Positions 3,638-36,834 of a stretch of 64,000 nt of DNA are shown in pieces; position 1 is the first letter of the stretch; each line of letters opens with the position of its first letter. This DNA comes from Rhizophagus irregularis (lineage: Eukaryota; Glomeromycota; Glomeromycetes; Glomerales; Glomeraceae). The DNA lies in contig NC_089436.1 in the NCBI RefSeq assembly GCF_026210795.1, positions 4,092,001-4,156,000 on the forward strand. The letters are read 5' to 3'. The notes below the pieces were generated by a model, which made no database searches, was not told the origin of the DNA, and saw only the letters and a program-made list of their open reading frames with translations. The translations under genes and the position numbers were made by a program.

Positions 3638-6601
3638 TTGATTATGGCTTGTAATAATAAAAAATGGAAAGAAATTATTAATAATGAATATGAATTTAAC
3701 GATAATGCAGAAGAAAGCAGTGCAGCTGCTGCACAAAGACAAAACACTGATCAATCACCTGCCAAAAAGGCTAAAATTAAGCAAAATACTAAATCACGAA
3801 CCAGTTGGGTTTGGAATTATTTTGAAATTAACAATGATAATGCAGAAAGTATATTTGCTCAATGTAAAGTTATTGAAGATGGTGAAATGGAATGTAGAGT
3901 AAAAATTCTTCATACTGGATCAACTGGTAATTTGATTAAACATCTAGCCTAGGAATGGCAATGGTTACGGTCATAACCGGTCATGACCGGTTAATAACTG
4001 TGACCGATATCAGCTGGTCAAAGGCTCTGACCGACCGTTTAACCAACCGTTCAACCGATCGTTAACCGACCATTTAACCAACCCTATTCATTTAACACTT
4101 TTTTTATGAGCTGAATCAATAAAAAAAGTTGTATAATGCTTTTGTTAGCAGATTTAATCAAAAAAAAAAAACTTTTTACCATTTTTTCTTAATTAAATTC
4201 ACTAAAAAAATGGTTAAACGGTTGGTTAAACGGTCAGAAAAATGGTCAGCAAAAACGGTCAGTCGGTCAAAGACCCATAACCAGTTATGACCGACCGATA
4301 ACTAACCGTGACCGACCGTTGCCATCCCTAATCTAGCCCGTAAACATACTTTAACAAAAAATTCATCTGCCCCATCTGAAAATAAGGTACTGTATCTTTT
4401 GTTTTACAATTATAGATTTTAAGGTTTAACTAATAAAATGTTGAATAATCATAAATATAGGGCAAATTAAAGCAAGTAAAGATCACAACTATGGTCAAAT
4501 CTGCTAATCCTGGAGCATATTCTAATAAAGTACAAGCACGCTATCATCAAGAAGTTTTAGACTATATTTTAGAAGATATACAGCCTATTAGTTGTGTAAA
4601 AAAGTCTGGTTTTAACAAATTACTTAATTTTTTTGATTCGTGTGTTACTTTACCTTCTGATCATAAAATTCATGAAATGTTAGCAAAATCTTACAACTAT
4701 ACTTATCGGGAATTACATGATTTAATTAAAAAGGAAGCTAAATCTGTTGCCTTGACTGCAGATTGCTGGTCTTCAAGAAGTCGCCATCCTTATATTGGTG
4801 CTACTGCAACTTGGTGTGACTCAGATTTTGATATTAAAGAAGTTCTTTTTTTTTTATCTATTGAATAATTTGATCATCCACATACAAGTGAGAAAGTTAA
4901 GGTTAAGATGGAAAAATATTTTCGTGATTGGAATTTAGAACCAAAATTTATAACAATAACCTGTGATAATGGGTCTAATATGGTTGGAGCAATAGATGTG
5001 ATGTCAAACGCAACTAGGATTCCATGTGTTGCTCATACATTACAATTAGCCGTTGGAAAATGCTTAAAGCCATGTCTTAAACTTATTGCTCGTGTAAATG
5101 CATTAATTCATTTTTTTTCTGGTTCACCTAAACAAACACAGCGACTGGAAAAGGCACAAAAAGGGATTGGAAAAGCACAAAAAGTTTTAAAAGTGAAAAC
5201 AGATGTTGTTACGCGTTGGAACTCAACATTTTATGCATGGGAGCGTCTTTTAAAATTGCGACTTGCAATTGCAACAGTAAAAAATCAATTGGATGTTAGT
5301 TCACTTTCAACAGACATTGATGATAGAAGAAGACTTAATTCTATTATGTTAACAAATGAGGAATGGAGTTTTATGAAATCTCTTTTAAATATTTTACAAC
5401 CTGTTGAAGAAGTAACGCGAAAACTTAGGTAAATTTTTGTTTTTAACTTTTATATATATTTTATGAATATATTTGTAACACATTATTAATATTGGACTTT
5501 TTAATTATAGTGGTAGTAATTATGTAACATTAAGTCTTGTATATCCAACTCTAGCATTGCTTTTAAAATGAATTCATACTGGTGTTGATTTTGGGTTAGA
5601 TGATCTTGAAAATATTAACTACAACAATGAAGATACTGTTTTTGAAGCTTTATGGAATGAAAGTGATGATGAGGATGATTTTGAAGTTGAATATGAATTC
5701 TATACTGATACAAATGGCCGACGTCGTAAAAAAAAGAAACCAATCGATATATCAAGTCCATTTGATCCAACAGGAGTTGAAATAAAAGTGAGAAAAATAT
5801 TATATAAGGCCATTAAACATTATTGGTCAGTTCGGAAGATGTAAGTAATTATTATAATATAATTTTTTTGAAAATATTTATAATTTTAAATTCTTTTATT
5901 ACACTAATTACAGATTGGACTTATGGCGAGCCTATTAGATCCAAGATGGAAAAATCTTTCATTTGCAACGCAAGAAGAAATTAAAAGAGTGCATGTATGT
6001 ATTATTGCGTAAAGAGTGTGAAATAATAAAATTACAAGAATCATTAGAAAGAAGCTTAAATAACAATGCACAAGAAGAGGAACTTGACGAATTTGTACAA
6101 GAAGACAGTGATGATTGTACTATTGATTCTGAATTTAATGATACCTTAGAAGAACATGATGATGAATGGGGAAGTAATGAAAGTGACCATTATGAAGAAG
6201 AGGATGAAAATGTGGAGGAAGAGAAAAATAAGGAAGAGGAGGAAGTAGTAAATGAATATAGAAGTATTTTTGAAAGTATTCAATCTCATAAGGAAATAAT
6301 GTTAATATTGAAATCTCTAATTTTCTTGCACGTCCACCTGTTTTAGATCTTGATACAAATCCATTTGAATGGTGGAAAAATCATAAAATGGAATTTCCAG
6401 TAATTGCCCATCTTGCACGAAAATATCTTATAATACCTGCAACTTCTGTACCAAGCGAAAGGTTATTTTCAGACGCAGGCAATCATATTACTAATAAAAG
6501 AGGGAGTATGGAGCCAAACACATTGAAAAAATCCTCTTTTTAAGGCGAAACAAGCAGGTGATTAATATTCACCTTCCAGATGGTAAGAATAAACATTATA
6601 A
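3638..6601 (+). pseudogene. hAT transposase (BED finger, RNase H-like core, hAT dimerisation domain)
   Basis: Exon 1 (3638-3949 plus 4339-4386) encodes a BED-type finger ending ...TGNLIKHLA and, after the nested insertion, RKHTL. An intron at 4387-4460 follows. The core is at 4461-5429, with ALTADCWSSRSRHPYIG and a CDNGSNM segment. Another intron lies at about 5431-5509. The last part carries the dimerisation domain NPFEWWK...IPATSVPSERLFS near 6360-6465. The copy is dead: the nested element introduces a stop at 3950-3952; nonsense codons lie at 4866-4868 and 5569-5571; and frameshifts occur near 5840-5914, 5990, 6300 and 6530. Apart from these the motif order is complete, so the copy may have been autonomous in the past. 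Confidence 0.85.
3950..4330. mobile_element. Nested hAT-type MITE (381 bp)
   Basis: Ends TAGGAATGGCAATGGT (left) and its inverted counterpart (right, reading TAGGGATGGCAACGGT on the other strand) bound a 381-bp element. The subterminal halves are full of inverted GGTTAAACGGT / ACCGACCGT words. Identical 8-bp duplications ATCTAGCC flank it (3942-3949 and 4331-4338). It interrupts the BED finger exon of the host hAT transposase, and removing it with one duplication restores that frame. It has no coding capacity and was presumably mobilised in trans. Confidence 0.92.
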
Positions 6602-8051: not shown

Positions 8052-10476
8052 ATGGACCAACGTATTGAAGGTATACCAAACAATCTGAAATATTAAGTTT
8101 TTGTTTATAAACAATTTATCTATAATTCAACTAATTTTATTCTTAATTTAAATAACTAGATTGTAAGTAATATATATATAATTTACAATAATTACTTTTA
8201 TATTATTTTTATATCTAACTAATTAATAATTAATAATACTACAGGGTGTAAGTTATATGATATCTATATTTATATTATTTGTACAATCCAATCTAACCAA
8301 TTTCTTTATTTAAAAAATTATTAAATAAAATAGGGAGTAAGTTATTTATTTAATTCTATTATTACTTATTGTTATAATATTTACATATAAAAACTATCTA
8401 ATTTCTTTATTTATTTAATAGTTGGTAAGTTATTTATTTAATTCTATTATTACTTATTGTTATAATATTTACATATAATTTAAACTATTCTAATTTCTTT
8501 ATTTATTTAATAGTTGGTAAGTTATTTATTTAATTCTATTATTACTTATTGTTATAATATTTACATATAATTTAAACTATCTAATTTCTTTATTTATTTA
8601 ATAGATCGTAAGTTATAAGTTATTTATTTAATTCTATTATTACTTATTGTTATAATATTTACATATAATTTAAACTATCTAATTTCTTTATTTAAAAAAT
8701 TATTAAATAATATAGGGTGTAAGTTATTTATTTAATTCTATTATTACTTATTGTTATAATATTTACATATAATTTAAACTATCTAATTTCTCTATTTAAA
8801 AAATTATCTATTATCTAGCTTGTAAGTATCTCTATTGTTCTATTGTTATATATTTTATATAATATTTATTTGTTAATTTAATTCTTTCATTTAAAATATC
8901 TGTTACTTTAGTTGGTAAGTTGTAAATTATAGATTATTATATTGTATTTAACCAAAAGCTAAGACTTATATACATTAAATTCCTATTTAAATTTTAGAGT
9001 AAGTAATAATTTATTTTTGTGTAAATTATAATACAATCTATAATATAATAATTTTAATTATTTAAATTTATAGATTTGGAAAAAGTGGAAATGCAATTAT
9101 AGATGATTTTATTCTTAAAAAAGTATTACAATGGATTCCTTATGACAAATTTAAAGAGGTTGAACATCTTAGTGAAGGGGGATTTGGTACTATATACAGA
9201 GCTATTTGGTTAAAGAATAATGAAGATAATGAAGATGAAGAATCTGATAAAGAGGATGAAGAAGTAATTCTTAAATGTCCCAAGAATTTAAATGAAGATT
9301 TAAATGAATTTTTAAAAGAAGTATGATAGTATATTATTTTCTATTTTTAATTTAAATTAAAATTTATCTATATTAATAATAATTATTATCTTTTATAGTG
9401 GGAATATCATACAAGTGTTTTAACTTCAAATGATATTATAAATGTTTATGAACTCACAAAAGAGCCAAATACTTCAAAATATATGGTAGTAATGGAGTAT
9501 GCAAATAAAGGTAATTTAAGAGAAAATTTAACAACAATAGTCGAAAATAATTGGAATCAAAAATTATATATGTTGTACGAAATTATTTCTGGACTTAGTA
9601 AGATACATGGAAAAAATCTCATTCATTGTGATTTTCATGATGGTAATATTTTAAATCATAATGATAAGAATGAGGATAAAATTTATATTTGTGATTTAGG
9701 ATTATGTCAACCTGTAAAATCGTTTTTGAAAAAGTATGATATTTATGGTGTTATACCATTTATGGCTCCTGAGGTTTTAAGAGGCAAATCTTATACTCCA
9801 GCTAGTGATATATATAGTTTTTCTATGATTATGTGGGAACTTACATCTGGGATACCACCATTTAATGATAGAGCACATGATATTCAACTTAGTTTAGGTA
9901 TTTGTAAAGGTGAACGACCTGAAATTATTGAAAATACTCCACAATGTTATGTAGATTTAATGAAAAGATGTTGGAATGAAGATCCATTAAAAAGACCATC
10001 TTCTAAAGAAGTATTAGAAATTATTAAAAAATGGATTTTCCATTCTTATAATAATGAAGCCAGTGAAGAATTACAAAGCAACATTATGGAATTTATAAAT
10101 GCACCAATTGGGCGTAACAATCTTTCTACTAAATCTCACCCTAAAGCATGTTATACAAGTCGCTTACTTGATTTTACTAGTAAAAAATTGAATGAAATTC
10201 TTGAAAGTGAAAATTCACAAGCATATCGTGCAAGTCATTCAGATTTGAATGATTGTTTGATTAATGATGATAGGTCATTAGGTATATACTATAATATATA
10301 AAAATTAATCTTGCAAATTATTTATATGAAATTAATTAATTCATTTAATTATTAAAACAGATAAGAATACTAGTAAAAAGTTGAATGAAAGTCTTGAAAG
10401 TGAAGATTCACATGCTACTAGTTTAAAAGCAAATGAAGTGCTAGTAAGTGAAGATATGAGTGATTATATAATTTAG
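8052..10476 (+). CDS. TKL-type protein kinase 1, with 3-nt micro-exon array
   Basis: Model: exon 8052-8070 (MDQRIE + G), nine 3-nt exons and one 1-nt exon (8998), exon 9074-9320, exon 9399-10281, exon 10361-10476. It totals 1293 nt = 430 residues with no stop. Kinase marks: Gly loop SEGGFGTIYRAIW, Lys in VILK, catalytic loop LIHCDFHDGN (Cys in place of the usual Arg of HRD; Asp and Asn kept), DLG for DFG, MAPEVLRG, and the C-lobe W...RP motif. The C-terminal tail holds SRLLDFTSKKLNE. Exon 9074-9320 has no in-frame Met before the Gly loop, so translation must start upstream, which needs the array region to be spliced. A read-through of the last intron would stop at 10299-10301. The protein is probably a cytosolic Ser/Thr or dual-specificity kinase; substrates are unknown. 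Confidence 0.8.
8071..9073 (+). repeat. Short intron/micro-exon array in kinase 1 (9 three-nt units + 1 one-nt unit)
   Basis: Between donor gtatac at 8071 and acceptor tag at 9071-9073 lie candidate exons bounded by AG and GTAAG: att 8160, ggt 8245, gga 8334, ttg 8422, ttg 8514, atc 8605, ggt 8716, ctt 8819, ttg 8912, and a single a at 8998. The intron bodies are 80-110 nt and similar to each other. Read from the phase-1 upstream exon these give D-W-W-I-V-D-R-S-F-E and then FGKSGN of the kinase exon. The last residues align with NFKNWTSGN of the kinase pseudogene at 52433, which has no array. The splice signals are seen directly; inclusion in mRNA is inferred. Confidence 0.75.
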
Positions 10477-13400
10477 AATTTGGGGTCATTGGGTATGTAC
10501 TATGATATATAAAAGGAATTAATCTTGCAAATTATTTATGTGAAATTAATTTTATTTAATATTTAATTATTTAGATATTAAAATAAATTAAAATTAACTA
10601 ATCATTGTTTGTTCTTAAAAAAAATTTATAGTTTTTTTTAAGTGATATTTGATATTACGCATTCAGAAGAAATTGTTCTTTATTTTATTCTTTTTAGATT
10701 TATTTAAATACTAAGGCTAGAGTAGTAAAATATTTTACAAATTTCTTAGTTTGTAATTTAAATAATTCCTTTTTTTTTAGCTTTTCACTTTTTTTATTAT
10801 ACTTAGAATTATTTAAACACTAAGACTAGAGTAGTAAATATTTTACAAGTTTCTTAGTTTGTAATTTAAATAAATCTTTTTTTTATAACTTTTCCAATCC
10901 AATTATGAGATATAAATTATTAATATAAGGCTATTATTATTTGGCGACCCTGTCACCATGGCGCCCACCTCATATCATGTGCTTTTTAATTTTTCTGATA
11001 CTTTATTTTTTCAATATTAATTTTTTTAATTAGTACTCTTAATACTTTTTTTTTTATGTGTAAAAAATTGAGAAATTTTTAATAATAAACAAACCAATGA
11101 ATAAATAAATAAATGAGCAAACAATAAACGAATAAATAAATGAATGAATAAAAGCATGAATAAAACAAACAAACCTATTAAAATATAAGAAATGATTATA
11201 CAATTTGTATACATTTTACTGAAAATTAACGTGTATATGTTATAATTGATGTCATATATTGTATGGGCTTATCGGACTCATTTCACTAAGTAATGATTAG
11301 GTGATAAAATTGAGGGGATATGGGAAACATCTTACTAATATCACGTGATTCAATCATAGAATATTATGTGAAATAAAAAAATTTGTCTAGTTTTTATATA
11401 AAACTAACAGATATTCGCTCGTTAAAAGAAATTCTGTATTATAAAAAGATTTGAATAAAAATAAATTTTTAGATACATACTTTTCTATCAATCAGCTTTA
11501 AATTTAAGAATGAGCCAATGAGAATATTGCTAATACAATTCGATTCTCTTAATTTATAATCTGAAGAAGTTGGTTATTTAATTTCCGAATAATTTTTTCT
11601 AAAATTAAAATCTTCGAACATTTACCTTTTCAATTATATTTGACTATGTATGACCCTAGAAACTTTTAATTATTATTTATTTATTGATTTACTTCGTATG
11701 GGCATAAAATTTCTTTATATTTTGCAAATGTTTGTAAATATTTTATTGAGATAAATATGAAATATATAGTGGGTTAAATATTAAATATTAATCCAAATAT
11801 AAAAGCGTTATAAATTTTAATGAAAAAAAAAAGTTTTTAGAAGGTAACCATTCTAATAATTTTCGAGCAATATGTAAATGATTTTAAATTTGTTTTTTAA
11901 TGTATAAAATTTTATAACGATGAAATTTTCTTTTTTTATTAACTTGTGTTCCGAAGGGTTGAGTCGGGTCAGGTTTTGAGGTCTATTCGAAGTTTCGAAC
12001 TCAATTTTTAACAATAGATTGGGTATAATTATTTTTTTCGCCATTCAGAAAATTCTTTGTACTGTATAACAATAGGTCGGATATAATTAGTTTTTTTTGA
12101 CATTTGGAAAAATTTTTTGGATAACAATAGATTGCTATGATATGATTTTTCTGAAGAATTTTTTTTGCAACAATAGATTGTTATAATGTGATTTTTTTTT
12201 TCTGTCACTTGCTGCTTTGTTAATAAAGTAAAAAACTAATAATAAAAATATCTAATCCTGATTTAAAATTAATTATTATTATGATCTATACTAATTATCT
12301 TTGTTATTTTTATTTATATAGAGTAAAATATAAGTATAATTAACAAATGTCACAATAATCAACTCGCAGTTAACATATCATTGTAGTACCGTATTGTGAT
12401 GACTAATAAAAATTGTACTACTATCAGAATTTGCTATTTTTCATTCAGCTTGAATTGTTCAATTAATAATCAAAAAAGGTCCTCCATCAAGAAATTATTA
12501 TTAATTTACTGATCAAATTTTTTTAACGCAGATTTATCATACATTATATAAATTTAAAAGAAACAATATTAAAAAAAATTATGTGTGAATTGTTAAAAAA
12601 AATATAAAAAAAAAATTTATCCATGGTGATATTTGCTGAAAAAAATTTTTAAGAAAAAAAAATTATGCATAATATGATTTTATTTATTGGTTAGGAAACA
12701 GTATTATTGAAAAAAAAATTTAAGAAAATGGTTAAGGAAACAATATTGAAAAAAATATAAGAATGTTGAAAAAAAATCTTACTAAGAAAGAAAAATTATG
12801 TGTTGTTTGAGAAAAAAAAAATGTTCATTAAGAAAAAAATTATCCATATTGTTAAAAAAAAAAAATTTTTTTGCCAAAATAAAAAAAATTATTTGTGTGG
12901 CTTATTAGTTATTAATAATAATACCTATAAAAATTTTGTAATAAATCAGACACAGATAATATTAGCCTCCCATAATTTTATATGCTAAATGACAATAAGT
13001 AACCCATCAGTTATATAATGAACCCATCAATTGAGCTTAAATATTAATTGGCTTGATTTTTCCAATCAGCCGATATGATATGTTACAGAATTCAAAATTA
13101 TATCAAAGATTATTTAAAGCCATAATAACAATACTAATTTTAAAGCCTATTTATTATTGATTACTAAATTATTTATTTATTTCACTTATTTAAGAAATTA
13201 ACAAAATTCACTATATAATCGCTAGAAAATTCTCTATTTTCAATACATAACTGAAACACAATAAAATATTAAAAAAAATATTTTTTTTTATCGCCAAAAT
13301 TAATCAGCTATTTCAGGAAATGATCAGCAAAAATTGTCATGTGATCGACTGGTGCTGTTGGGAAAAATGTAGCCAACCGTTTTTGATTTAATATAAAAAA

Positions 13401-14654: not shown

Positions 14655-17600
14655 ATGGCTTTCAATAATGATAAAGGTAATAGAATATGTATAGTATAAA
14701 TATTTAATACAATTAAAATTCTTATATTTTTAAACAAATTTATAATATAATAAAACTAGTTTCTGGTAATATTGAATTTGAAGGAAGCAGCACTAAAGAA
14801 TTTGAAGGAAGTGGATCTGAGGAATTCAATGGAAATGACTCTGAAGAATTTGAAGAAAGTAATATCAAGGAATCTAAAGGTATATTAAAAATGCTAAAAT
14901 ATAAAATATTAAATTTTTATTTGTAAATACATTAAATACATTTAAATATTATATATACTATATAATTAAACTTTACATAATATATTTAAATAATCTAGCT
15001 CGTAAGTTAATAGGTTATCTTATAATTGAATTACTTATCATTTTTATTACATCCATTTCAAGTAATTAAATAATTTTATTTAATTATTAATACAATGTTA
15101 TACTAGTCAGTAAGTTATTAGTTATTTAAATCTTCAATTTTTTACCTTATTTTATTTATTCTACATAATATTCAAATAAATAATTCTTTATTTAATTAAT
15201 TACTTAATAATTAATTGTATTACAGATGGTAAGTTATAATATCATATTTATTTGCTTATTATTTTATATAGCTTTAACTAATTATATTCTTAATTTAAAT
15301 AACTAGATTGTAAGTAATATATTTAATTTACAGTAAATACTTTTTTATTATATTTATATTTATATTTAATAATTAATTAATAATACTAGGGTGTAAGTTA
15401 CAGTAAATATCTATATTTCTATTATTTATATAATTTAAGTTAACTAAATTCTTTATTTAAAAAATTATTTTGTATTTTTTTAAAGTTGGTAAGTTATAAG
15501 TTATTTATTTAATTATATTATTATTTATTTATATAATATTTACATATAATTTATGCTAACTAAATTCTTTATTAAATAGATCGTAAGTTATAAGTTATTT
15601 ATTTAATTTTATTATTACTCATTTATATAATACTTGCATATAGTAATTTAAATTAACTAAACTCTTTATTTAAATAGATCGTAAGTTATAAGTTATTTAT
15701 TTAATTCTATTATTATTTATTTATATAATATTTATTACATATAATTTAAACTAACAAAATTCTTTATTTAAATAGATCGTAAGTTATAAGTTATTTATTT
15801 AATTCTATTATTATTTATTTATAATATTTATTACATATAATTTAAACTAACAAAATTCTTTATTTAAATAGATCGTAAGTTATAAATTATTTATTTAAAC
15901 CTATTATTACTTTTTAATATAATATTTACAAATAATTTAGATTAACTAATTTCTTTATTTAAATAGATCGTAAGTTATAAGTTATTTTTTAATTCTATTA
16001 TTATAATATTTATATATAATTTAAACTAACTAAATTCTTTATTTAAAAATTATTTAATAATATACTAGGGCGTAAGTTATTTATTTATATAATATTCAAA
16101 TATAATTTAAACTAAATAAATTCTTTATTAAAAAAATTATTTAATAATATAGGGAGTAAGTTATTTATTTATATAATATTTACATATAATTTTAACTAAC
16201 TAAATCCTTTATTTAAAAAATTATTTTGTAATTTCCTTTAGTTAGTAAGTTACAAGTTATTTACTTAATTCTATTATTACTTTATTTATATAATATTCAC
16301 ATATGACTTAAACTGAATTCTTTATTTAAAAATTATTTAATAATATAGGGTGTGAGTTATTTATTTAATTCTATTATTACTTATTTATAATATTTAGCAA
16401 ATAATTTAATTTAACTAAATTACTTAATAATATAGGGCGTAAGTTACTACCTATTTAATTCTATTATTACTTATTATTTATTTATATAATATTTATATAT
16501 AATTTAAACTTACTAATTTTTTATTTGAAAAATTATTTAATAATATAGAGCGTAAGTTATTTGTTTAATTCTATTATCACTTATTTATATCTATTATTTA
16601 TTTACATAATATTTATATACAATTTAACGAATAAATTCTTTATTTAAAAAATTATTTAATAATATAGGGCGTAAGTTATTTATTTAATTCTATTATTACT
16701 TATTTATATAATATTTACATATAATTTAAATTAATTTAAAAAATTATTTTGTAATTTCTTCTAGTTTGTAAGTTATAAGTTATTTATTTAATTCTATTAT
16801 TACTTATTTATACATTATTTAACTAACCAAATACTTATTTAAAAAATTTTTTGATAATATAGGGCGTAAGTTATTTATTTATATAATATTTACATATAAT
16901 TTTAACTAACTAAATTCTTTATTTAAAAAATTATTTTGCAATTTCTTTAGTTGGTAAGTTATAAGTTATTATTTAATTCTATTATTACTTATTTATATAA
17001 TATTTACATATAATTTAAATTAACTAAATTCTTTAAAAAAATTATTTAATAATTAGAGCGTAAGTTATTTATTCTATTATTACATATTTATATAATATTT
17101 ACATATAATTTAAACTAATTAAATTCTTTATTTAAAAAAATTATTTGATAATATAGGACGCAAGTTATTTATTTAATTCTATTATTACTTATTTAAATAA
17201 TATTTGTATATAATTTAAACTAAATAAATTAATTATTTAAAAAATTATTTTGTAATTTCTTTTAGTTGGTAAGTTACAAGTTATTTATTTTATTCTATTA
17301 TTACTTATTTATATAATACCTACATATAATTTAAACTAAATAAATTCTTTATTCAAAAATTATTTAATAATACAGGGAGTAAGTTATTTACTATTTAATT
17401 CTATTATTATTTATTTATTTATAATTTAAACTAACTAAATTCTTTATTTAAAAATTATTTTGCAATATTTTTTAGTTGGTAAGATATAAGTTATTTGCTT
17501 AATTCTATTATTAGTACTTATTTAATATAATATTCACATATAATTTAAACTAACTAAATTCTTTATTTAAAAAATTATTTTATAATTTCGTTTAGTTGGT

Positions 17601-20600
17601 AAGTTATAAGTTATTTATCTAATTATATTATTACTTATTTATGTAATATTTACTACGTATAATCAAAATTTATTTAAATAGATCGTAAGTTATAAGTTAT
17701 TTATTTAATAGTATATTATTACTTATTTATATAATATTTATATATGATTTAAATTAACTAAATTCTTTATTTAAAAACTAGGGTGTAATTTATTTATTTA
17801 ATTCTATTATTACTTATTTATATAATATTTGTATATAATTTAAACTAATCAATTTCTTTTTCTAAAAGATTGTAAGCATAAGCTATTTATTTAATTCTAT
17901 TATTACTTATTTATATATAATTTAAACTAACTAAATTCTTTATTTAATATTATTTAATAACATAGGGTGTAAGTTATTTATTTAATTCTATTATTACTTA
18001 TTTACATATAATTTAAACTAAGTAAATTTATTCAAAAAAAATATTTTGTAATTTATTTTAGCTGGCAAGTTATAAGTTATTTATTTAATTCTATTATTAC
18101 TTATTTATATAATATTAATATATAATTTAAACTAACTAAATTCTTTATTTAAAAAATTATTTTGTAATTTCTTTAGTTGGTTAGTTATAAGTTATTCATT
18201 AAATTCTATTATTATTTATTTATATAATATTTACATATAATTTAAACTAGTAACTAAATTTTTATTTAAAAAATTATTTAATAATATAGGACGTAAGTTA
18301 TTTATTTTCCATTATTACTTATTTATATGTAATATTTACAAATAACTTGAACTAACTAAATTCTTTACTTAAATAGATCGTAAGTTATAAGTTATTTATT
18401 TAATTCTCTTATTACCTATTTATGTAATATTTATATATAATTTAAGCTAACTAAATTCTTTATTTAAAAAATTATTTAATAATATAGGACGTAAGTTATT
18501 TATTTAATTCTATTGTTACTTATTTATATAATGTTTATATTTAATTTAAACTAACTAGATTCTTTATATAAAAAATTATATGATAATACAGGGCGTAAGC
18601 TATTTATTAAATTCTATTAGTACTTGTTTATATATATTTACATATAATTTTAATTTAAACTAACCAAATTCTTCATTTAAAAAATTATTTAATAATATAG
18701 GGCGTTAGTTATTTATTTAATTCTATTATTACTTATTTATATAATATTTATATATAATATAAACTAACTAAATTCTTTATCTAAATAGATCGTAAGTTAT
18801 AAGTTATATATTTAATTCCATTATTAGTTATTTATATATATCGATATAATATTTGCATATAATTTAAACTAACTAAATTCTAATATAGAGTGTAAGTTAT
18901 TTATTTAATTCTATTATTACTTATTTACATAATACTTAGATATAATTCAAACTAACTAAATTCTTTGTTTACTAAAAAATTATTTAATAATATAGGGCGT
19001 AAGTTATATATTTAATTCTATTATTACTTATTTATGTAATAATACTTACATGTAATTTAAACTAACTAAATTCTATATTAAAAATTATTTAATAATATAG
19101 GGAGTAAGCTATTTATTTAATTCTATTATTACTTATTTATATAATGTTTACATATAATTTAAATTAATTTAAAAATTATTTTGTAATTTCTTTTTTAGTT
19201 GGTAAGTTATAAGTTATTTATTTATTTCTATTATTACTTATTCATAATATTTACATAAAATTTTAAACTAACTAAATTCTTTATTTAAAAAATTATTTTG
19301 TAATTTCTTTTAGTTGGTAAGTTATAAGTTATTTCTCTTACTTACTTATTCATATAAAATTCGCATATAATTTAAACTAACTAAATTAATTATTTAAATA
19401 GATCGTAAGTTATAAGTTATTTATTTAATTCTATTAATACTTATATAATATTTACATATAATTTAAATAAATTCTTCATTCAAAAAATTATTTAATAATA
19501 TAGGGTGTAAGTTATTCATTTAATTCTATTATTACTTACTATTTATATATTATTTACATATAATTTAAGCTACTGAATTCTTAATTTAACAAATAATTAA
19601 TAATATAGGGCGTAAGTTATTCTATTATTACTCATTTATATAATATTTACATACAATTTAAACTAACTAAATTCTTTATTTAAAAAATTATTTTGTAATT
19701 TCATTTAGTTTGTAAGATATAAGTTATTTATTTAATTCTATTATTACTTAATTATATAATATTTACATAATTTAGACTAACTAAATTTTTCATTTAAAAA
19801 ATTATTCAATAATAATATAGGGTGTAAGCTATTTATTAATTCTGTTATTACTTATTTGTATAACATTTGCACATAATTTAAACTAGCTAAATTCTTTATT
19901 TAAAAAATTATTTTGTAATTTCTTTTAGTTGGTAAGTTATAAATTATTTATTTAATTCTACTAATTCTATTATTAATTATTTATATAATACTGTATTTAT
20001 TCTTTATTTAAAAAATTATTTAATAATATAGGGTGTAAGTTGTTTATTTAATTCTATTATTAGTACTTATTTATATAATATTCTAAATTCTTTATTCAAA
20101 AAATTATTTAATAATATAGGGAGTAAGTTATTTATTTATTCTATTATTACTTATTTATATAATATTCGCATATAATTTAATTAACTAAATTCTTTATTTA
20201 AAAAATTATTTTGCAATTTCTTTTTAGTTGGTAAGTTATAAGTTATTTATTTATTTCTATTATTATTTATTGTTATAATATTTACATATAATTTAAACTA
20301 ACTAAATTCTTTATTAAAAAATTATTTAATAATATAGGGTGTAAGTTATTTATTTAATTCTATTATTACTTATTTATATAATATTTACTTATAATTTAAA
20401 CTAACTAAATTCTTTATTTAAAAAATTATTTTGCAATTTCTTTTAGTTGGTAAGATATAAGTTATTTAATTATTTCTATTATTACATAATTATATAATAT
20501 TTGCAAATAATTTAACTAACTAAATTCTTTATTTAAAAATTATTTTGTAATTTCTTTCAGTTTGTGAGTCATAAGCTAATTATTTAATTCTATTATCACT

Positions 20601-23600
20601 TGTTTATATAATATTTACATATAATTTAAACTTACTAAATTCTTTATTTTTATTTAATAATATACTAGGGCGTAAGTTATTTATTTAATTCTATTATTAC
20701 TTGTTTATATAATATTTACATATAATTTAAACTAACTTCTAAAAAATTATTTTGTAACTTCTTTTAGTTGGTAAGTTAATAAATTATTTAATTCTATTAT
20801 TACATATAATATTTAAATTAACTAAATTCTTTATTTATAAATTATTTAATAATATAGGGTGTAAGTTATTTATTTAATTCTATTGTTACTTATTTATATA
20901 ATTTTTAATTGTAATTTTAAACTAACTAATTCTTTTATTCAAAAAATTATTTAATAATATAGGGTGTAAGTTATTTATTTAATTCTATTATTACTTATTC
21001 ATATAATATTTGCATATAATTTAAGCTAAATAAATTCTTTATTTAAATAGATCGTAAGTTATAAGTTATAAGTCATTTATTTAATTCTATTATTACTTAT
21101 TTATATAATATTTACATATAATTTAAACAATTTCTTTTAGTTGGTAAGTTGAAGTTATTTATATATATATTTATTTATTTAATTCTATTATTATTTATTT
21201 ATATAATATTTACATATAAACTAACAATTCTTTATTTAAAAATTATTTTGTAATGTCATTTAGTTTGTAAGTTATAAGTTATTTAATTCTATTATTACTT
21301 ATCTATATAATATTCACATATAATTTAAACTAACTAAATTCTTTATTTAAAAAATTATTTAATAATATAGGGTGTAAGTTATTTATTTTAATTCTATTAT
21401 ATAATATTTACATGTAATTTAAACTAACTAAATTTTTGTTTATAAAAATTATTTAATAATATAGGGAGTAAGTTATTTATTTAATTCTATTATTACTTAT
21501 TTATATAATATTTACTTATAATTTAAATTAACTAAATTTTTTATTTAAAAAATTATTATGTAATTTCTTTTAGTTGGTGAGTTTAAGTTATTTATTTAAT
21601 TCTATTATTACTTATATAATATTTACATGTAATTTGAACTAACTAAATTCCTACTTTAAAAAATTATTTTGTAATTTCTTTTAGTTGGTAAGTTTAAGTT
21701 ATTTATTTAATTCTATTATTACTTATTTATATAATATTTTTATGTATTTTAAATTAACTAAATTCTTAAAAAATTATTTTGTAATTTCTTTTAGTTGGTA
21801 AGTTATAAGTATTTAATTCTATTATTACTTATTTATATGATATTTACATATAATTTGAACTAATTAAATTCTTTATTTAAAAAATTATCTTGTAATTTCT
21901 TTTAGTTGGTAAATTATAAGTTATTTATTTAATTCTATCATAATATTCATATATAATTTAAACTAACTAAAATTTTATTTAAAAAATCTTTAATAATATA
22001 GGGCGTAAGTTATTTATTTAATTCTATTATTATTTATTTAAGTACTAGTATTTAACTAGATATAATTTAAACTAACTAAATTCTTTATTTTAAAATTGTA
22101 ATTTCTTTTAGTTTGTAAGTTATAAGTTATTATTTAATTCTATTATCACTTACTTGTATAATATTTAGATATAATTTAAACTAACTATATTCTTTATTTT
22201 AAAATTATTTTTTAATTTCTTTAGTTTGTAAGTTATAAGTTATAATTCTATTATTACTTATTTATATAATATTTACATATAATGTAAACTAACTTAATCC
22301 TTTATTTATAAAATATAGGCCGTAAGTTATTTTAATTCTATTATTACTTTATTTATATAATATTTATATATAATTTAAACTAACTAAATTCTTTATCTTT
22401 TAGTTTGTAAGTTATTTACTTAAAATCTATTATTACTTATTAATATTTACAAATAATTTAAATTAACTAAATTCACTATTTAAATAGATCGTAAGTTATA
22501 AGTTATTTATTTAATTCTATTATTACTTATTTATATAGTATTCTAAATTCTTTATTCAAAAAATTATTTAATAATATAGGACGTAATTAATTCTATTATT
22601 ACTGATTTATATAATATTTGCATATAATTTAAACTAACTAAATTCTTTATTTAAAAAATTATTTAATAATATAGGACGTAAGTTATTTATTTAATTCATT
22701 ATTATTTATAATATTTACATGTAATTTTAATTAACTAAATTTTTTATTTAAAAAATTATTTAATATATAGGGCGTAAGTTACTTATTTAATTCTATTATT
22801 ACTTTTTTCATATAATTTAAACTAACTAAATTCTCTATTTGAATAGATCGTAAGTTATAAGTCATTATTTGATTCTATTATTACTTTATTTATATAACAT
22901 TTACATATAATTTAAATTAACTAAATAATAATTATTTTAATAATATAGGGTGTAAGTTATCTATTTATTCTATTATTACTTATTTATATAATATTTACAT
23001 ATAATTTAAACTAACTATATTCTTTATTTAAATAGATCGTAAGTTATAAGCTATTCATTTAATTTTATTATTACTTATTTATATAATATTTACATATAAT
23101 TTAAACTAACTAAATTATTTTTTGAAAAAATTATTAATAATATAGAGCGTAAGTTATTTATTTAACTTTATTTTTACTTATTTATAATATTTACATATGA
23201 TTTAAACTAATTTAAAAAATTATTATATCATTTCTTTTAGTTTGTAAGTTATAAGTTATTTATTTAATTTTGTTATTACTTTATTTATATAATTTTTACA
23301 TATAATTTAAACTAACTTCTTTATTTATAAAATTTATTTAATAATATAGCTTGTAAGTTATTTATTATTTCTATTGTTATATATTTTATAAGTATTTATT
23401 TGTTAATTGAATTCTTTCGTATAAAATTTCTATTACTTTAGTTGGTAAGTGGGTTATTATTATATATATTTATACAAAAACTAAAACATATATTATATTA
23501 AATTTCTATTTAAATTTTAGAGTAAGCATTTATTTTAATCTTAAATAATTTTTAATATAAACGTCAATGATAATTCTAATTATTTAAATTCATAGATTTG

Positions 23601-24894
23601 GAAAAAGTGGAAATACAATTATGGATAATTTTATTTTGGAAAAAAAATTAAAATGGATTCCTTATGATAAATTTAGAAATGTTGAGTTTCTTGATAAAGG
23701 AGGATTTGGTACTATATACAAAGCTATTTGGTTTTATGATGATGAAGATAATGAAGTAATTCTTAAATGTTATAATAATTTAAGTGAAAATTTAAATGAA
23801 TTTTTAAATGAAGTATGATGATATATTATCTATTTTTTTTTTAATTTAAATAATAATTTATTTCCATTAATATAATATTATTATTATTTATAGTGGAAAT
23901 ATCATGAAAGTTTTTTAAGTTCATATGATATTATTTATTTTTATGGGTTCACAAAAGATCCAGATACTTTGAAATATATGGCGGTAATGGATTATGCAAA
24001 CAAAGGTAATTTAAGAGGAAACTTAACAAGAATAATCAAAAGTGGTTGGAATCAAAAATTATATATGTTATATGAAATTATTTCTGGGCTTAATGACATA
24101 CATAATCAAAATCTTATTCATTGTGATTTTCATGATGGTAATATTTTAAATCATAATGAGAGTAAAATTTATATTAGTGATTTAGGATTGTGTAAACCTG
24201 TAGAATCATTTTTGAAAAAATATGATATTTGTGGTGTTGTGCCATTTATGGCACCTGAAGTTTTAAGAGGCAAATCTTATACTCCAGCTAGTGATATATA
24301 TAGTTATTCTATGATTATGTGGGAATTTACATCTGGAGTACCACCATTTAATAATAGAGCACATGATTTTCAACTTAGTTTAAGTATTTGTAAAGGTGAA
24401 CGTCCTGAAATTATTGAAAATACCCCACAATGTTATGTAGATTTGATGAAAAAATGTTGGAATGATGATTCATCAAAAAGACCATCATCTAAAGAAGTGT
24501 TGGATATTATTTATAAATGGATTTTTCGTCCGTATAAAGCTAAACTTGAAGATATTAATGAAGAATTAAAATGCAATGTTATGGAATTTATAAATGCACC
24601 AATTGAGCATAACAATAATCTTGCTACTAAATCTCATTCGCAGGCATATTATACAAGTCGCTTACTTGATTTTACTAGTAAACAATTGAATAAAACTCTT
24701 GAAAGTGAAGATTTACAAGCTAGTGTAAAAGTAAATGAAATGCTAGTAAGTGAAGATTTGAATGATTGCATAATTGAAGATATAAAGTCATTAGGTATGT
24801 TATAGTATATAAAAAGAATTAATTTTTCAAATTATTTATGTGAAATTAATTTTATTTATTTAATTATTTAGATATTGAAACAGATGAAAAATAA
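14655..24894 (+). CDS. TKL-type protein kinase 2, 10-kb gene with large micro-exon array
   Basis: Model: exon 14655-14676 (MAFNNDK + G), exon 14760-14879 (acidic Glu/Ser-rich, with repeated EEF-type motifs), about 85 three-nt exons, a 1-nt exon at 23521, kinase exons 23596-23812, 23894-24794 and 24872-24894. The full set gives 1539 nt = 512 residues without a stop. Kinase marks: DKGGFGTIYKAIW, VILK, LIHCDFHDGN, SDLGLC, MAPEVLRG, WEFTSGVPPF. It is a close paralogue of kinase 1, with shared introns and 3' flank. A Met at 23621 could serve as an internal start giving a shorter product if the array is not used. Upstream starts in the same frame as 14655 exist, so the first Met is uncertain. Confidence 0.75.
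14880..23595 (+). repeat. Giant tandem intron/micro-exon array (about 85 three-nt units + 1 one-nt unit)
   Basis: Every unit, averaging about 100 nt, has the order GTAAGTTA-rich donor, AT body (TTTAATTCTATTATTACTTATTT..., ATATAATTTAAACTAACTAA), T-rich or AT-rich tract, AG, three nucleotides, next donor. Candidate exons start ctc 14999, tca 15107, atg 15236, att 15307, ggt 15390, ttg 15486, atc 15580 and end ttt 23241, ctt 23350, ttg 23442, a 23521. Hand tally: ttg 18, atc 13, ggt 12, ggc 11, ttt 8, gga 5, gac 5, agc 3, att 2, others 8. Unit types group by intron end: ...TTTTAG|ttg/ttt, ...AATATAG|ggN/gac/agc, ...TTTAAATAG|atc. Donor variants include GTGAGT, GTAAGC, GTTAGT, GTAAAT and two GC donors (17160, 18065). 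The AG-3-GT spacing held in every unit I inspected. Confidence 0.85.
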
Positions 24895-25383
24895 CTAATT
24901 ATTTGTGTTTTTATAAGAATTTGGTTTTTTTAAGTGATATTTTATGTTATGCAGATAACAGAATTTATTTAAACATTAAGTAAAATAGTTTATAAGATTA
25001 ATTTAAACAATTCCTTTTTTTTATAGCATATCCAAATATTAAATATTTATATTCTCTTTTATTTTACTTAGAATTATTTAAACACTAAGACTAGGGTAGC
25101 AACCAGCAAGTTTCTTAGTTTGTAATTTAAATAAATTTCAGTTATTAAATATAAATTATCAAAATAATAATATAAACATAGTATAAACCATTTCCAATGC
25201 ATAAAATTAAAAATAAATAATACAAAATTTTTCTATACTCATTTCAATGGCTAATTGAATTTAATTTATATTGTTGACTTTTATAGGATTATTTTAATGT
25301 TCAAAGAGGTGAATCCACCTGGGGTGATTTTTACTGTATCATATAATTTATAAATAATTACTAGGAAACGGGAACCGTTGTAA

Positions 25384-31327: not shown

Positions 31328-33539
31328 TAAGTTGGACGATCCTGTAGATCGGCGAGGTTTTATTAATAATGTTTCACATCAATTACATTAATTAATAAAA
31401 ATAGTACGCAATTTCAATTTTTTCTATACTGAAATTTAGAAGGAATAATTTTTAAATATAATGTTGGACTTACAAATTTTATTCCATCACACTTTGATAC
31501 TACCGCAATATTAGTAATGATTATGGCAAGCCGAGTTGGACAAAATTATCAGACATTGCGTGATAAAATATCAAGCATGGCTAGACAAAATGTCACTCCG
31601 TGTCTGACATTTTACCTGTTTATGCTTGATTTTCATCTGTCCCGTGCTTGATATTTATCTGATATTTTTATCTGTTCATGCTTGATGTTTATCTATCACG
31701 TGCTTGATATTTTTATCTGTTCATGCTTGATGTTTATCTGTACATGCTTGATGTTTTATCTATACGTGCTTGATGTTTTATCTGTACGTGTTTGATGTTT
31801 ATCTGTACATGCTTGATATTTATCTGTATGTGCTTGATGGTTTTATCTGTACGTGCTTGATGGTTTTATCCGACCATGCTTGACATTTTTATCCGTCCAT
31901 GCTTTATGTTTTTATCCATCTGTGCTTGATATTTTTGTCCGTCTGTGCTTGATGTTTTTGTCCAACTGTGTTTGATTTAATCCAACTATGCTCGATAATT
32001 TTATCTTTGTCAAAAATTAGTTTCTTTGTCAGCACAGGGTTGATATATTGTTGGTCACATGTTTTAAGTTTAGCGTAGTTTTAAAAAATTTTTTTTTTTT
32101 ATTGGCTTTTTTTTATAAACAAATTTTGTAGAGAATTTTATTTTTAATATAGGCAAAGGCTTAGTTTGATAGAATTTCTTTGGGAATTTTTTTAATAAGA
32201 TTTTTTTGATAAAAAATTTCGTTAGAAAATTTTTTTCATTGATAGGAACATTTCTGAGTTTTTTTTTTTGATGATAATTTCGTTAAAAATTTTTATTTGA
32301 TAGAAATTTTATTGGAGAATTTTTTTTTGATAAGATTTTTTTTTGACATATACTTAACAATTTTTTGTGACAGGAGAAATTTTTTTTTTTTGCAGAAAAT
32401 TATTTGAAGAATTTTTTTAATAGGGAAGATTTTTTTTTTGATAGATAATTTCGTTACTAGAAAATTTTTTTAACAAGTGAGATTTTTTTTTGATAGAGAA
32501 TTTTGTTAAGAATTTTTTTTTTAATAGGTAAGATTTTTTTTTTTTGATAGATCATTTCGTTAATAATTTTTTTAACAGGAGAGATTTTTTTTTTTGATAG
32601 ATCATTTCGTTAATAATTTTTTTAACAGGAGAGATTTTTTTTTTTTGATAGATCATTTCGTTAATAATTTTTTTAACAGGAGATTTTTTTTTTGATAGAA
32701 AATTTCGGTAAAGAATTTTTTTTTTAATAGGGAAAATGTATTTTTTGATGGAAGATTTTCGTTAGAAATTTTTCTTAATCAGGGATATTTTTTTTTGATT
32801 GAGAATTTCATTAGAGAATTGTTGGTTGAAAAGTTTTTTTATTTTTTTGATGGAGAATTTTGTTAGAAGTCTCAATAGAAAATTTTATTGAAAATAGTTT
32901 TTTTTTAATAAGGGTATCGAGAATTTTGGCTTGAAATTTTTTTTTTTTAATAAAGAATTTCATTAGAGATCTTTTTTTATAAAATTAAAAAAAATACTAA
33001 ATTACATTAATAAGATTAAGATAAAATTAAAAAAAACTATGATAGAATCCTAAGTAGCATAAGTAGCATAGTAAATTAAGCAAATTTTATATACTAGTAA
33101 AGCTCCGCATGAGCCAACATAAATTAAGAAGTTAACTTTAAGAAAAGTATATAGCAGAAATTTGTTTGCAGTGTTTCTTCTTTTTATCATTAATTAGCAT
33201 AAAAACATTTTTGAAAATCTACTATTTTAAATACTTTTAATATATATAAATAAAAATTGGGATTGCTAAATGTCGCCTGGGCGATCATCGCCTGGGGTTT
33301 TTTTTTCAAATATGTATCTAATTTTTGATCGGTTATTATTAAAAAGATATTTTTTAAAAAAATTTTTTTGCAAACATATTTATTCAAAATAACCTTATTT
33401 AATGAAATTTTATTTACAAAATTAAAATTTAAGTCACATTTACGATTTTAAAGAATAAAATCACCATATTTATTTTTATTGAAATGTACAAATAAAAGAA
33501 ACAATAACAATAAATAAAAAAGATAAGTAAATTACAATG

Positions 33540-34105
33540 ATCAAGGAAAAAAAAATATAATAACAATGGAGTAATGGAAAGTAATAGAAGATGAAAGGGA
33601 GTAAAAAAGAGTATTGAGAAGTGATAGGAACCAAAAGGAGAAATAGGACATGATGAGAGATGAAAAGGAGTGATGGAAGACGAAAAGAAGTGATGGGTGA
33701 CAAAGAGGAGTGATGGGAGATAAAAAAAAAGAAGTGATGGGAAGATTAAGAGGAGTGATGGGAGATAAAAAGGAGTGATGGGAGATGAAAAGAAGTGATG
33801 AGAAGATTAAGAGGAGTGATGAGTGACGAAAAGAAATGATGGGAAGATTAAGAGGAGTGATGGGAGACGAAAAGGAGTGATAGGAGACGAAAAGAAGTGA
33901 TGAGAAGATTAAGAGAAGTGATAGGAGACGAAAGGGAGCGATGGGAGACGAAAAAGAGTGATGGGAGACGAAAAGGAGTGATAGGAGACGAAGAGGAGTG
34001 ATGGGAGACGAAAAGGAATGATAGGAGACGAAAAGGAATGATGGGAGACGAAAAGGAGCGATGGAAGATTAAAAGAAGTGATGGGAAGATGAAGAGGAGT
34101 AAAAA
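33540..34105. repeat. 20-bp minisatellite in the fold-back loop
   Basis: Tandem units of GGAGTGATGGGAGACGAAAA, with variants such as GAAGTGATGAGAAGATTAAG, run from about 33660 to 34105 with a degraded start near 33540. Purine-rich on the plus strand. The unit length is not a multiple of three and the frames do not look coding. Confidence 0.8.
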
Positions 34106-35409
34106 TTTATTAAAATTGTAAAATTTAATAAAAAATTTTCCAATCAATTTTCAATCAATTTTTTATAAAAAAAAAGATCTCTAATGAAATTCTTTATTAG
34201 AAAAAAAAAATTTCAAGCCAAAATTCTCGATACCTTTATTAAAAAAAAACTATTTTCAATAAAATTTTCTATTGAGACTTCTAACAAAATTCTCCATCAA
34301 AAAAATAAAAAGGCTTTTCAACCAACAATTCTCTAATTAAATTCTCAATCAAAAAAAATATCCCTGATTAAGAAAAATTTCTAACGAAAATCTTCCATCA
34401 AAAAATACATTTTCCCTATTAAAAAAAAAATTCTTTACCGAAATTTTCTATCAAAAAAAAAAAATCTCCTGTTAAAAAAATTATTAACGAAATGATCCTA
34501 TCAAAAAAAAAAAAATCTTACCTATTAAAAAAAAAATTCTATGATGAAATTTCTATCAAAAAAAAAAAATTCTCTAATAAAATTTTCTGTCAAAAATACT
34601 ATTAAAAAAAATTCCCAAAAGAATTCTTTATCAAGGAAAACTCCCTCCTATTAAAAAAAATTCCCAAAAGAATTCTTTATCAAGGAAAACTCCCTCCTAT
34701 TAAAAAAAAATTCTTAACGAAATTCTCTATCAAAAAAAAATCTCACTTGTTAAAAAAATTTTCTAGTAACGAAATTATCTATCAAAAAAAAAATCTTCCC
34801 TATTAAAAAAAATTCTTCAAATAATTTTCTACAAAAAAAAAAATTCTCAATTAATTCTCTATCAAAAAAAAAAAATCTCTCCTGTAAAAAAAAAATTGTT
34901 CCAACAAATTAAGTATATGTCAAAAAAAAAATCTTATTAAAAAAAATTCTCCGAAATTATCATCAAAAAAAAAAACTCAGAAATGTCCCTATCAATGAAA
35001 AAAAATTTTCTAACGAAATTTTTTATCAAAAAAAATCTTATTAAAAAATTCCCAAAGAAATTCTACCAAACAAAGCCTTTGCCTATATTAAAAATAAAAA
35101 TTCTCTACAAAATTTGTTTATAAAAAAAAGCCAATAAAAAAAAAAATTTTTTTTAAAACTACGCTAAACTTAAAAACATGTGACCGACAATATATCAACC
35201 CTGTGCTGACAAAGAAACTAATTTTTGACAAAGATAAAATTATCGAACATAGTTGGATTAAATCAAACACAGTTGGACAAAAACATCAAGCACAGACAGA
35301 CAAAAATATCAAGCACAGATGGATAAAAACATAAAGCACGGACAGATAAAAATGTCAAGCATGGTTAGATAAAACTATCAAGCACGTACAGATAAAACCA
35401 TCAAGCATA

Positions 35410-36309
35410 TGGCAAGCCAAATCGGACAAAAGTCTGTCAATGCACAGATAAATTTTCACAGTTATTCTTTGCCATTTTTAGTAATTTTTTGCAGATGATC
35501 TGTGATATTTTGCATATATTATCTGCGAAACTTTCCAAAAATTTTTACAGATATTTTTTCCAAATTTTCCCATTTTTTATTATCTGTGCATCAACAGATA
35601 ATTTATCTGTACATTAGCAGATAATTATCTGAATATTAACAGATAATCATCCAGATTTTAACAGATAAATTACTCTAATTATTAAGATAATAATTTGCAT
35701 TTTAGTTTTAGAGAGAATGGTATTAAATGTATGAATTTAAAATAATTTTTAAAAATTTATTTGTTTAATTTAAAAACAAATAGTACAATTGAGATATTAA
35801 AAAAAAAAATTCATTCTGTTATAGTGTAAGATAAAAATATAATAAATAAATTATGTATCAAAAACTATAAAGTAATTATTATTTATTAACAAAATATTAT
35901 AAAAAGTATATTAATAAACATTAAAAACTTTCCTTGTAAAGCAATAGATAAAAAATCATGAAAAAAAGTTTAAGTTTGACAAGTTTCAGAATTCTAAAAA
36001 ATGTTTTTTTTAATTTATCACACAAAAAAATATAAAAATTTAATGATAATTTATCTGCTATTACCCAGATGATTATCTGTTAATATTCAGATAATTATCT
36101 GTTAATGCACAGATAAATTATCTGTTAAAGTTCAGATAATAAAAAATGGAAAAATTCGGAAAAAACATCTGTAAAAAATATCAGACTGTTTCACAGATAA
36201 TAAATGCAAAATATCACAGATCATCTGCGAAAAATTACCAAAAATGGAAAGAAATAACTGTGATAATTTATCTGTGCATTGACAGACTTTTGTCCGTTTT
36301 GGCTTGCCA
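35410..36309. mobile_element. 900-bp fold-back element nested in the larger one
   Basis: Ends TGGCAAGCC...GGCTTGCCA with TA on both sides (35408-35409 and 36310-36311). The arms (about 35410-35690 and 36040-36309) are inverted copies rich in CAGATAATTATCTG words. It interrupts the 21-bp repeat of the host right arm, which continues on both sides. The shared terminal GGCAAGCC shows that both elements belong to one family. Confidence 0.88.
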
Positions 36310-36834
36310 TACAAGCACGTACAGATAAATATCAATCACGTACAGAAAAACATCAAGCACGGTACAGATAAAACATCAAGCACGTACAGATAAAACATCA
36401 AGCACGTACAGATAAAACATCAAGCACGTCAGATAAACATCAAGCATGAACAGATAAAAATATCAAGCACGTGATAGATAAACATCAAGCATGAACAGAT
36501 AAAAATATCAAGCACGGACAGATGAATATCAAGCATGAACAGGTAAAATGTCAGGCACGGTGTAACATTTTGTCAATCCATGCTTGATTTTTCACCCGCC
36601 CAATGCCTGATAGTTTAGTCCAGCTCGGCTTGCCATAAATGATATCATTGAATAGTGATGTGCAACTGTTTGGTTGCACAAATCATACTAAATAAGTTCA
36701 TTTTGGAATAGACACATCGCATAAATTTACGCCAACTTGCAGTTGTACAAAACTTACATTTAAACGAAAATATTATTCCTAAATAAAAATCTTACGTCGC
36801 TAGAGGTTTTAATTCTTTTGCAACAAAAAAAAAT

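Follow-up and report, generated by a model that had tools for sequence, protein, structure and literature searches.

In the micro-exon genes of Schistosoma, many tiny exons follow one another, their lengths are multiples of three, and skipping them keeps the reading frame; most of the coding sequence of such genes lies in short exons of 3n length. Introners are near-identical introns found in many unrelated genes. Recursive splicing uses adjacent AG|GT sites with no exon between them and, as in stwintrons, several splicing steps take place within one interval. The micro-exon genes have been reviewed (PMC8293314), and introners or introner-like elements (PMC9860276, PMC4457414) and stwintrons (PMC5639578) are treated in papers which, like the review, were accessible in part. 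Isolated exons of 3 nt or 1 nt are described in the accessible parts of reports on Drosophila homothorax (PMC7392893), Arabidopsis (PMC4674806) and Fusarium CYP621A (PMC12940212), and coding minisatellites of the PRDM9 type in those of PMC3890296 and others. In the open literature of PubMed Central, a search which leaves most subscription papers and preprints outside, no array of one-codon exons was found and nothing on the Rhizophagus arrays presented here.

The DNA stretch analysed here (64,000 nucleotides of the Rhizophagus irregularis genome, hereafter the window) contains two protein kinase genes, each preceded by an array of short repeated units. From the sequence features detailed below, these arrays are probably runs of one-codon exons which would be joined in phase 1 ahead of the kinase domain.

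The two kinase genes and their relatives in the genome

The first gene (kinase 1) is located on the plus strand at positions 8052-10476 and displays nine 3-nt units plus one 1-nt unit. Its entry exon (8052..8070) encodes MDQRIE plus one base and ends in phase 1 at GAAG|GTATAC. The array with its introns (8160..8914) includes the triplets ATT (8160), GGT (8245), GGA (8334), TTG (8422), TTG (8514), ATC (8605), GGT (8716), CTT (8819) and TTG (8912), each sitting between TAG or CAG and GTAAG; its phase-1 reading would be DWWIVDRSF plus E. A predicted 1-nt exon, an A at 8998 (8998..8998), is bounded by AG and GTAAG like the triplets. The kinase exons (9074-9320, 9399-10281 and 10361-10476, i.e. 9074..10476) carry FGKSGN and the protein kinase domain (PF07714, E=2.4e-41).

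The second gene (kinase 2), also on the plus strand (14655-24894), has 85 triplets plus one 1-nt unit. Its two entry exons (14655-14676 and 14760-14879) contain acidic repeats, and they end in phase 1 at AAAG|GTATAT. The array (14999..23444, introns included) can be read in phase 1 without stop and is made of CTC, TCA, ATG, ATT and GGT, 78 more units, then CTT and TTG, the triplets starting at 14999 to 23442. Eighty-one of the 85 units are caught by the pattern of TAG or CAG, triplet and GTAAG; in the remaining four, the acceptor is AAG or the donor GTAAT. The 1-nt junction pattern predicted a single-base exon, again an A, at 23521 (23521..23521), and the kinase exons at 23596-23812, 23894-24794 and 24872-24894 (23596..24894) match the kinase domain (PF07714, E=3.4e-40). 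In the Pfam test for the PF07714 / PF00069 family, the two genes scored 142.2 and 138.4 bits with PF07714 (cut-off 23.1).

The unit lists given for both genes in the sequence-only reading were correct (nine versus 85 triplets, each plus the 1-nt A), as was the statement that their middles differ in length (9 versus 85 units). The sequence around ATT was likewise recovered in both genes, at 8145 and 15292, and the proposed frame-neutrality of each unit agrees with an array that is both entered and left in phase 1. The contrary outcome had been named as a satellite that has nothing to do with splice sites, and the paralogs show otherwise.

Other features of the window were recorded. A 108-base tandem repeat in two copies is present downstream of kinase 1 (10678-10894), and sequence resembling it lies behind kinase 2 near 25040. 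The region 31539-36559 looks like a large fold-back element: minisatellites with the unit TTTATCTGTACATGCTTGATG (31667-31959) and its inverse (35262-35407 and 36312-36559) flank a 20-base array (33651-34100), and the GC skew reaches 0.52 at 32-34 kb within that region. Judged by eye, positions 5000-6600 look like the remnant of a hAT-type transposase gene.

On the plus strand of the window, the distance from TAG or CAG to GTAAG was 3 nt in 83 cases, while any other distance between 0 and 30 was found in at most four. Sites of the form AG-NNN-GTANG showed the same concentration, with 84 of the 86 plus-strand sites inside the two arrays and two sites on the minus strand of the whole window. The 3-nt spacing in these arrays is not a matter of chance.

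The search was extended to the R. irregularis genome (146,748,485 bases in 32 contigs). The 35-base start of the unit, with any triplet, gave 822 matches (391 + 431) and the 1-nt-exon junction was found at 88 places (44 + 44), while both reversed-pattern controls gave 0. At least 64 of the 88 junctions adjoin a listed kinase match on the same strand; this is a lower bound, since only 91 candidates were scored for kinase match. Two sets of loci were then defined. Set 1 consists of 16 loci drawn from the first 100 of the 822 listed places (contigs C1-C4). Set 2 consists of 16 of the 88 junction places, which were chosen before their arrays were read and covered by 3 kb each, so that arrays may be clipped. 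An array was present in 14 of the 16 loci of set 1, with a kinase exon directly downstream in 14 of 14, as well as in both window genes. All 14 arrays and the two of the window lead into the same kinase family. In one of the 14 (L025+L024), the 1-nt exon appears to be a G. The other two loci of set 1, L010 and L026, are remnants with neither array nor gene; one unit near 4942 and about three units near 4852, respectively, were seen there, with no kinase motif in the 10 kb fetched. Foreign sequence, probably from mobile elements, lies inside array introns of L012 (8599-8727) and L046 (1198-1712).

The array introns have a median length of 96 bases (63-130), the five ordinary introns of the two kinase genes measuring 77-83. 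The branch-site motif CTAAY is present in the last 60 bases of only 699 out of 940 array introns, which counts against the proposed splicing, and a relaxed version of the motif in 895. In 446 aligned segments, their splice dinucleotides GT and AG are 96-100% conserved. The array introns resemble ordinary introns and would be recognised individually.

Reading phase and stop codons at the unit junctions

Entry exons were located by their acidic motif, and a candidate was printed for 17 loci. In thirteen of these the exon stops in phase 1 with AG|GTAT as donor, and in a fourteenth (L032) with AG|GTAG; in the three others among the 17 candidates (L012, L016 and L020), a phase-1 donor of the AG|GTAT type was absent. 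On the exit side, the carried base, the 1-nt exon and the first base of the kinase exon make up one codon leading into FGKSGN. Because the exons on both sides set the phase, the triplets would be read in phase 1, and each codon then takes its first base from the end of one triplet and its other two from the start of the following triplet, about 96 bases away on the DNA.

The codons formed across these distances avoid stops. In set 1, T was found before AA, AG or GA in 2 of 78 cases versus 158 of 547 before other pairs (p=8e-9); considered by pair, this amounted to 0/52 before AG, 0/16 before GA and 2/10 before AA. The effect persisted after de-duplication, with each pair counted once per locus (p=8e-7) or once overall (p=9e-4), and was found again in the 16 further loci of set 2, where T preceded stop-completing pairs in 1 of 49 cases versus 87 of 287 (p=1.9e-6). 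For the combined sets, junctions were counted solely where units measured 50-135 bases. Cleaning removed 23 units and 21 junctions from the initial 1047 units and 961 junctions (one false L012 unit in an inserted element, and the runs of L041 and L043 with less than 60% strict motifs) and lowered the stop count from three to two. The cleaned sets contain two phase-1 stops in 940 junction codons, a TAA in L027 and a TAG in L031, against 29.6±4.2 in 1000 within-array shuffles (minimum 16). The codons GGG, GTT and TAT, which are not stops, also departed from the shuffle by about 3 SD. The order of units is thus not random, and the de-duplicated counts together with set 2 outweigh the shuffle score. 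In the third phase, stops were present in 105 of 624 codons.

These counts bear directly on the view that each array is a minisatellite within one long intron, which would be removed as a whole or stepwise with its triplets left untranslated. The tandem repetition of about 100 bases and the fact that most of the sequence is common to all copies agree with it, and an array skipped as a whole would still preserve the frame if the 1-nt exon was kept. A satellite has, however, no reason to avoid stop codons across about 96 bases, as was observed at the phase-1 junctions of two sets of loci, and this avoidance speaks for coding. The bases that vary are, moreover, placed exactly between a conserved AG and a conserved GT. 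A minisatellite of this kind is considered very unlikely, and a plain satellite was rejected on the stop tests and the column conservation.

It was also considered that splicing includes the triplets as whole codons of frame 0 and that a last exon of 5 nt (AGTAA) replaces the 1-nt exon, as some deposited models, P0028 among them, would imply. Twenty-three proteins, all from R. irregularis, were retrieved; most of them have their start close to FGKSGN or exactly there, or include translated intron sequence. Models which look like chains of frame-0 triplets were found for P0001, P0002 and P0013 from R. irregularis and, among 125 proteins, for P0028, P0044 and P0052; P0033 and P0060 from Rhizophagus diaphanus are similar. 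P0028, an R. irregularis kinase with a 99% match to a locus of this genome, is the only model that was traced to DNA, and its chain corresponds for the most part to the frame-0 triplets of a locus on contig C11. The third base of the triplet is also the most variable one in several arrays, as would be expected of codons whose last base is free to change. In contrast to what this reading requires, the entry exons end in phase 1, and it does not predict the stop avoidance seen at the phase-1 junctions; it was rejected on these two grounds. Furthermore, kinase 2 has GC instead of GT after AGTAA. Frame 0 itself contains stops in 3 of 688 codons, and few are expected anyway, since none of the 1024 triplets begins with TA. 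Triplets seldom begin with TA or TG, and TGA makes up five of the eight TGN triplets, so that there is no sign of stop avoidance in this frame. Reading in frame 0 thus appears highly improbable, and the chain of P0028 apparently arises by retaining part of an intron.

The deposited models indicate that gene finders accept the splice sites, which is not proof of splicing. The N-termini of this kinase family are probably misannotated in them, and the two protein models of R. diaphanus suggest that arrays exist in a second species. Minimap2-style alignment with an intron limit of 3,000 bases is not known to place 3-nt exons. Such a limit was used with minimap2 in one long-read mapping (PMC10234402).

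Within the coding interpretation, each transcript could use some of the triplets only, and many isoforms would then be produced by frame-neutral skipping. Splice sites are nearly equivalent along the array and any combination of units stays in phase 1, as such partial inclusion would need, but it is between adjacent triplets that stops are avoided, and adjacent triplets should therefore be joined frequently. Partial inclusion is considered rather unlikely. It is likely that the triplets are spliced together, because neighbouring triplets avoid the formation of stop codons.

Variation of the triplets and of the introns

A set of 446 segments was cut by an intron anchor and aligned, using the columns filled in at least half of the rows (121 of 384). 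AG was conserved at 99-100% and GT at 96-98%, while the three exon columns in between reached 48, 65 and 30%. Most intron columns were above 90%, with a few columns specific to unit subfamilies at 54-81%. Within single arrays (29 of 32, those with fewer than 12 introns being left out), exons differed by 0.55-0.73 per site, which is near saturation, and introns by 0.03-0.20. In L033, the triplets CTC, GGA, ATG, GGT and TTC stand between many introns of 101 bases with identical or almost identical sequence. Among 201 pairs with identical 80-nt flanks, exon sites still differed at 0.31; as this figure leans on a few homogeneous arrays, the per-array values are preferred. Both the stop avoidance and the hypervariability of triplets between similar introns were missed in the earlier reading.

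The nearest relative of an intron was found in the same array in 282 of 862 cases, versus 37.3 expected at random. When both whole flanking introns were identical, the triplet was identical too in 22 of 24 groups of units, indicating that very young copies have not been diversified. Hypermutation of the exons as the sole cause of their diversity is weakened by these copied blocks which keep their triplets.

An origin by insertion was weighed as well, in which mobile introner-like introns would have entered an older continuous exon every three bases, so that the codons would be the older part and the introns copies added later. One 88-nt intron is indeed identical in seven copies from five loci with differing neighbour triplets, and the triplets beside an intron and beside its nearest relative agree in merely 25% and 36% of cases (8% by chance). 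Against it, tandem blocks have been copied together with their codons, and the sampled places outside kinases gave remnants only (2 of 16 loci). The segment ranges from 9 to 85 codons in length, and insertion into an older exon was rejected because the coding length varies with the number of units. This origin is held to be improbable. Homogenisation of the introns, with codon diversity being kept or favoured, would be the simplest account of the pattern.

The end units had been called orthologous, which is borne out by the identity between kinase 1 and kinase 2 of the ATT>GGT intron (0.85) and of the CTT>TTG intron (0.88). Three middle introns of kinase 1 show a mutual identity of 0.97-0.99; they reach 0.97-1.00 with introns of a gene on another contig and 0.88-0.89 with kinase 2. 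A fourth one reaches 0.94 with kinase 2, compared with 0.99 for a gene elsewhere. All eight introns of kinase 1 had a match outside the window that equalled or exceeded the best one in kinase 2, in a comparison which favours outside matches, as the intron pool of the other genes is about ten times that of kinase 2. The expansion or shrinkage of the middle had been attributed to unequal exchange of intron units. Such exchange is plausible within the family; a direct exchange between kinase 1 and kinase 2 was sought by intron identity and none was found. Judged by their introns, the ends of the two arrays can be regarded as orthologous and their middles as independent.

Proposed architecture and comparison with known systems

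The DNA itself displays the 3-nt spacing, phase 1 at both ends, the avoidance of stops, the near-saturation of the triplets between similar introns and a single position in one gene family; from these features we infer both the splicing and the mode by which arrays change. A unit of about 100 bases would consist of an intron-like stretch from GTAAG to AG and three bases. The spliceosome would remove the introns in succession and the triplets would be joined in phase 1. The resulting segment, some 10 to 90 residues long, would lie directly ahead of the kinase domain and be closed by the predicted 1-nt exon. Whole codons would be gained or lost, without frameshift, when units are duplicated, lost or exchanged via their introns; these events would also keep the introns alike, and selection may keep or make the codons diverse. 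In the least certain step, the segment could give each kinase a hypervariable region for recognition or docking, a role suggested by its variability and its location before the kinase.

Taken further, the arrays might form a repertoire of codon cassettes in a kinase family of up to 88 or more members, with every residue of the hypervariable segment encoded by its own exon. Exchange between units with like introns would edit one amino acid at a time with the frame intact, skipping may add isoforms, and the whole could provide this arbuscular mycorrhizal fungus with a recognition system that diversifies. This wider proposal is tentative, and somewhat more likely to be wrong than right.

If the triplets are spliced, a single transcript presents the spliceosome with tens of 3-nt exons in a row, and the smallest known exons would turn from isolated cases into an architecture. 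A new route of protein diversification would be at hand, with the intron as the recombination tract and the codon as the unit of change, in which both the length and the sequence of a segment vary without frameshift. The host is a model arbuscular mycorrhizal fungus. Such exons would be overlooked or misinterpreted by ordinary read alignment and annotation, as is suggested by the deposited models, so that comparable arrays may have escaped notice elsewhere.

In comparison with recursive splicing and stwintrons, the Rhizophagus arrays also would involve multiple splicing steps per interval. Unlike in recursive splicing, three bases are present from each AG to the next GT and these avoid stops; the gap between acceptor and donor was 3 nt in 83 cases and 0 nt in two. 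With introners, as far as the accessible parts of the papers describe them, the arrays have in common near-identical introns at many places. The sampled arrays differ from them in being all located at one position of one gene family and in adding codons. No insertion of array introns into unrelated genes was found in set 1, i.e. in the first 100 of the 822 matches, where 14 of 16 loci belong to one kinase family and two are gene-less remnants. PRDM9-type minisatellites, from what is accessible of their descriptions, resemble the arrays in that units are alike save for a few diversified codons, and the Rhizophagus units are indeed alike except for particular variable codons. In the PRDM9 type, however, the repeat itself is coding and translated into a domain, whereas here the units resemble each other in their intron and contribute a single codon each to the coding sequence, with about 100 bases per unit and three between AG and GT.

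Like the micro-exon genes of Schistosoma, the arrays would be made of consecutive tiny exons whose skipping keeps the frame. The micro-exons of Schistosoma are longer and of varied size; in Rhizophagus each exon has the length of one codon, every codon is shared between two adjacent exons, and the introns have been copied from one another. The exons measure 3 nt, yet most of the coding sequence lies in ordinary kinase exons. Isolated exons of 1 or 3 nt in other organisms, according to the accessible parts of the reports, can be spliced and have the same size as the Rhizophagus units. Those cases are, however, single exons in single genes, while Rhizophagus presents up to 85 consecutive ones in a gene family.
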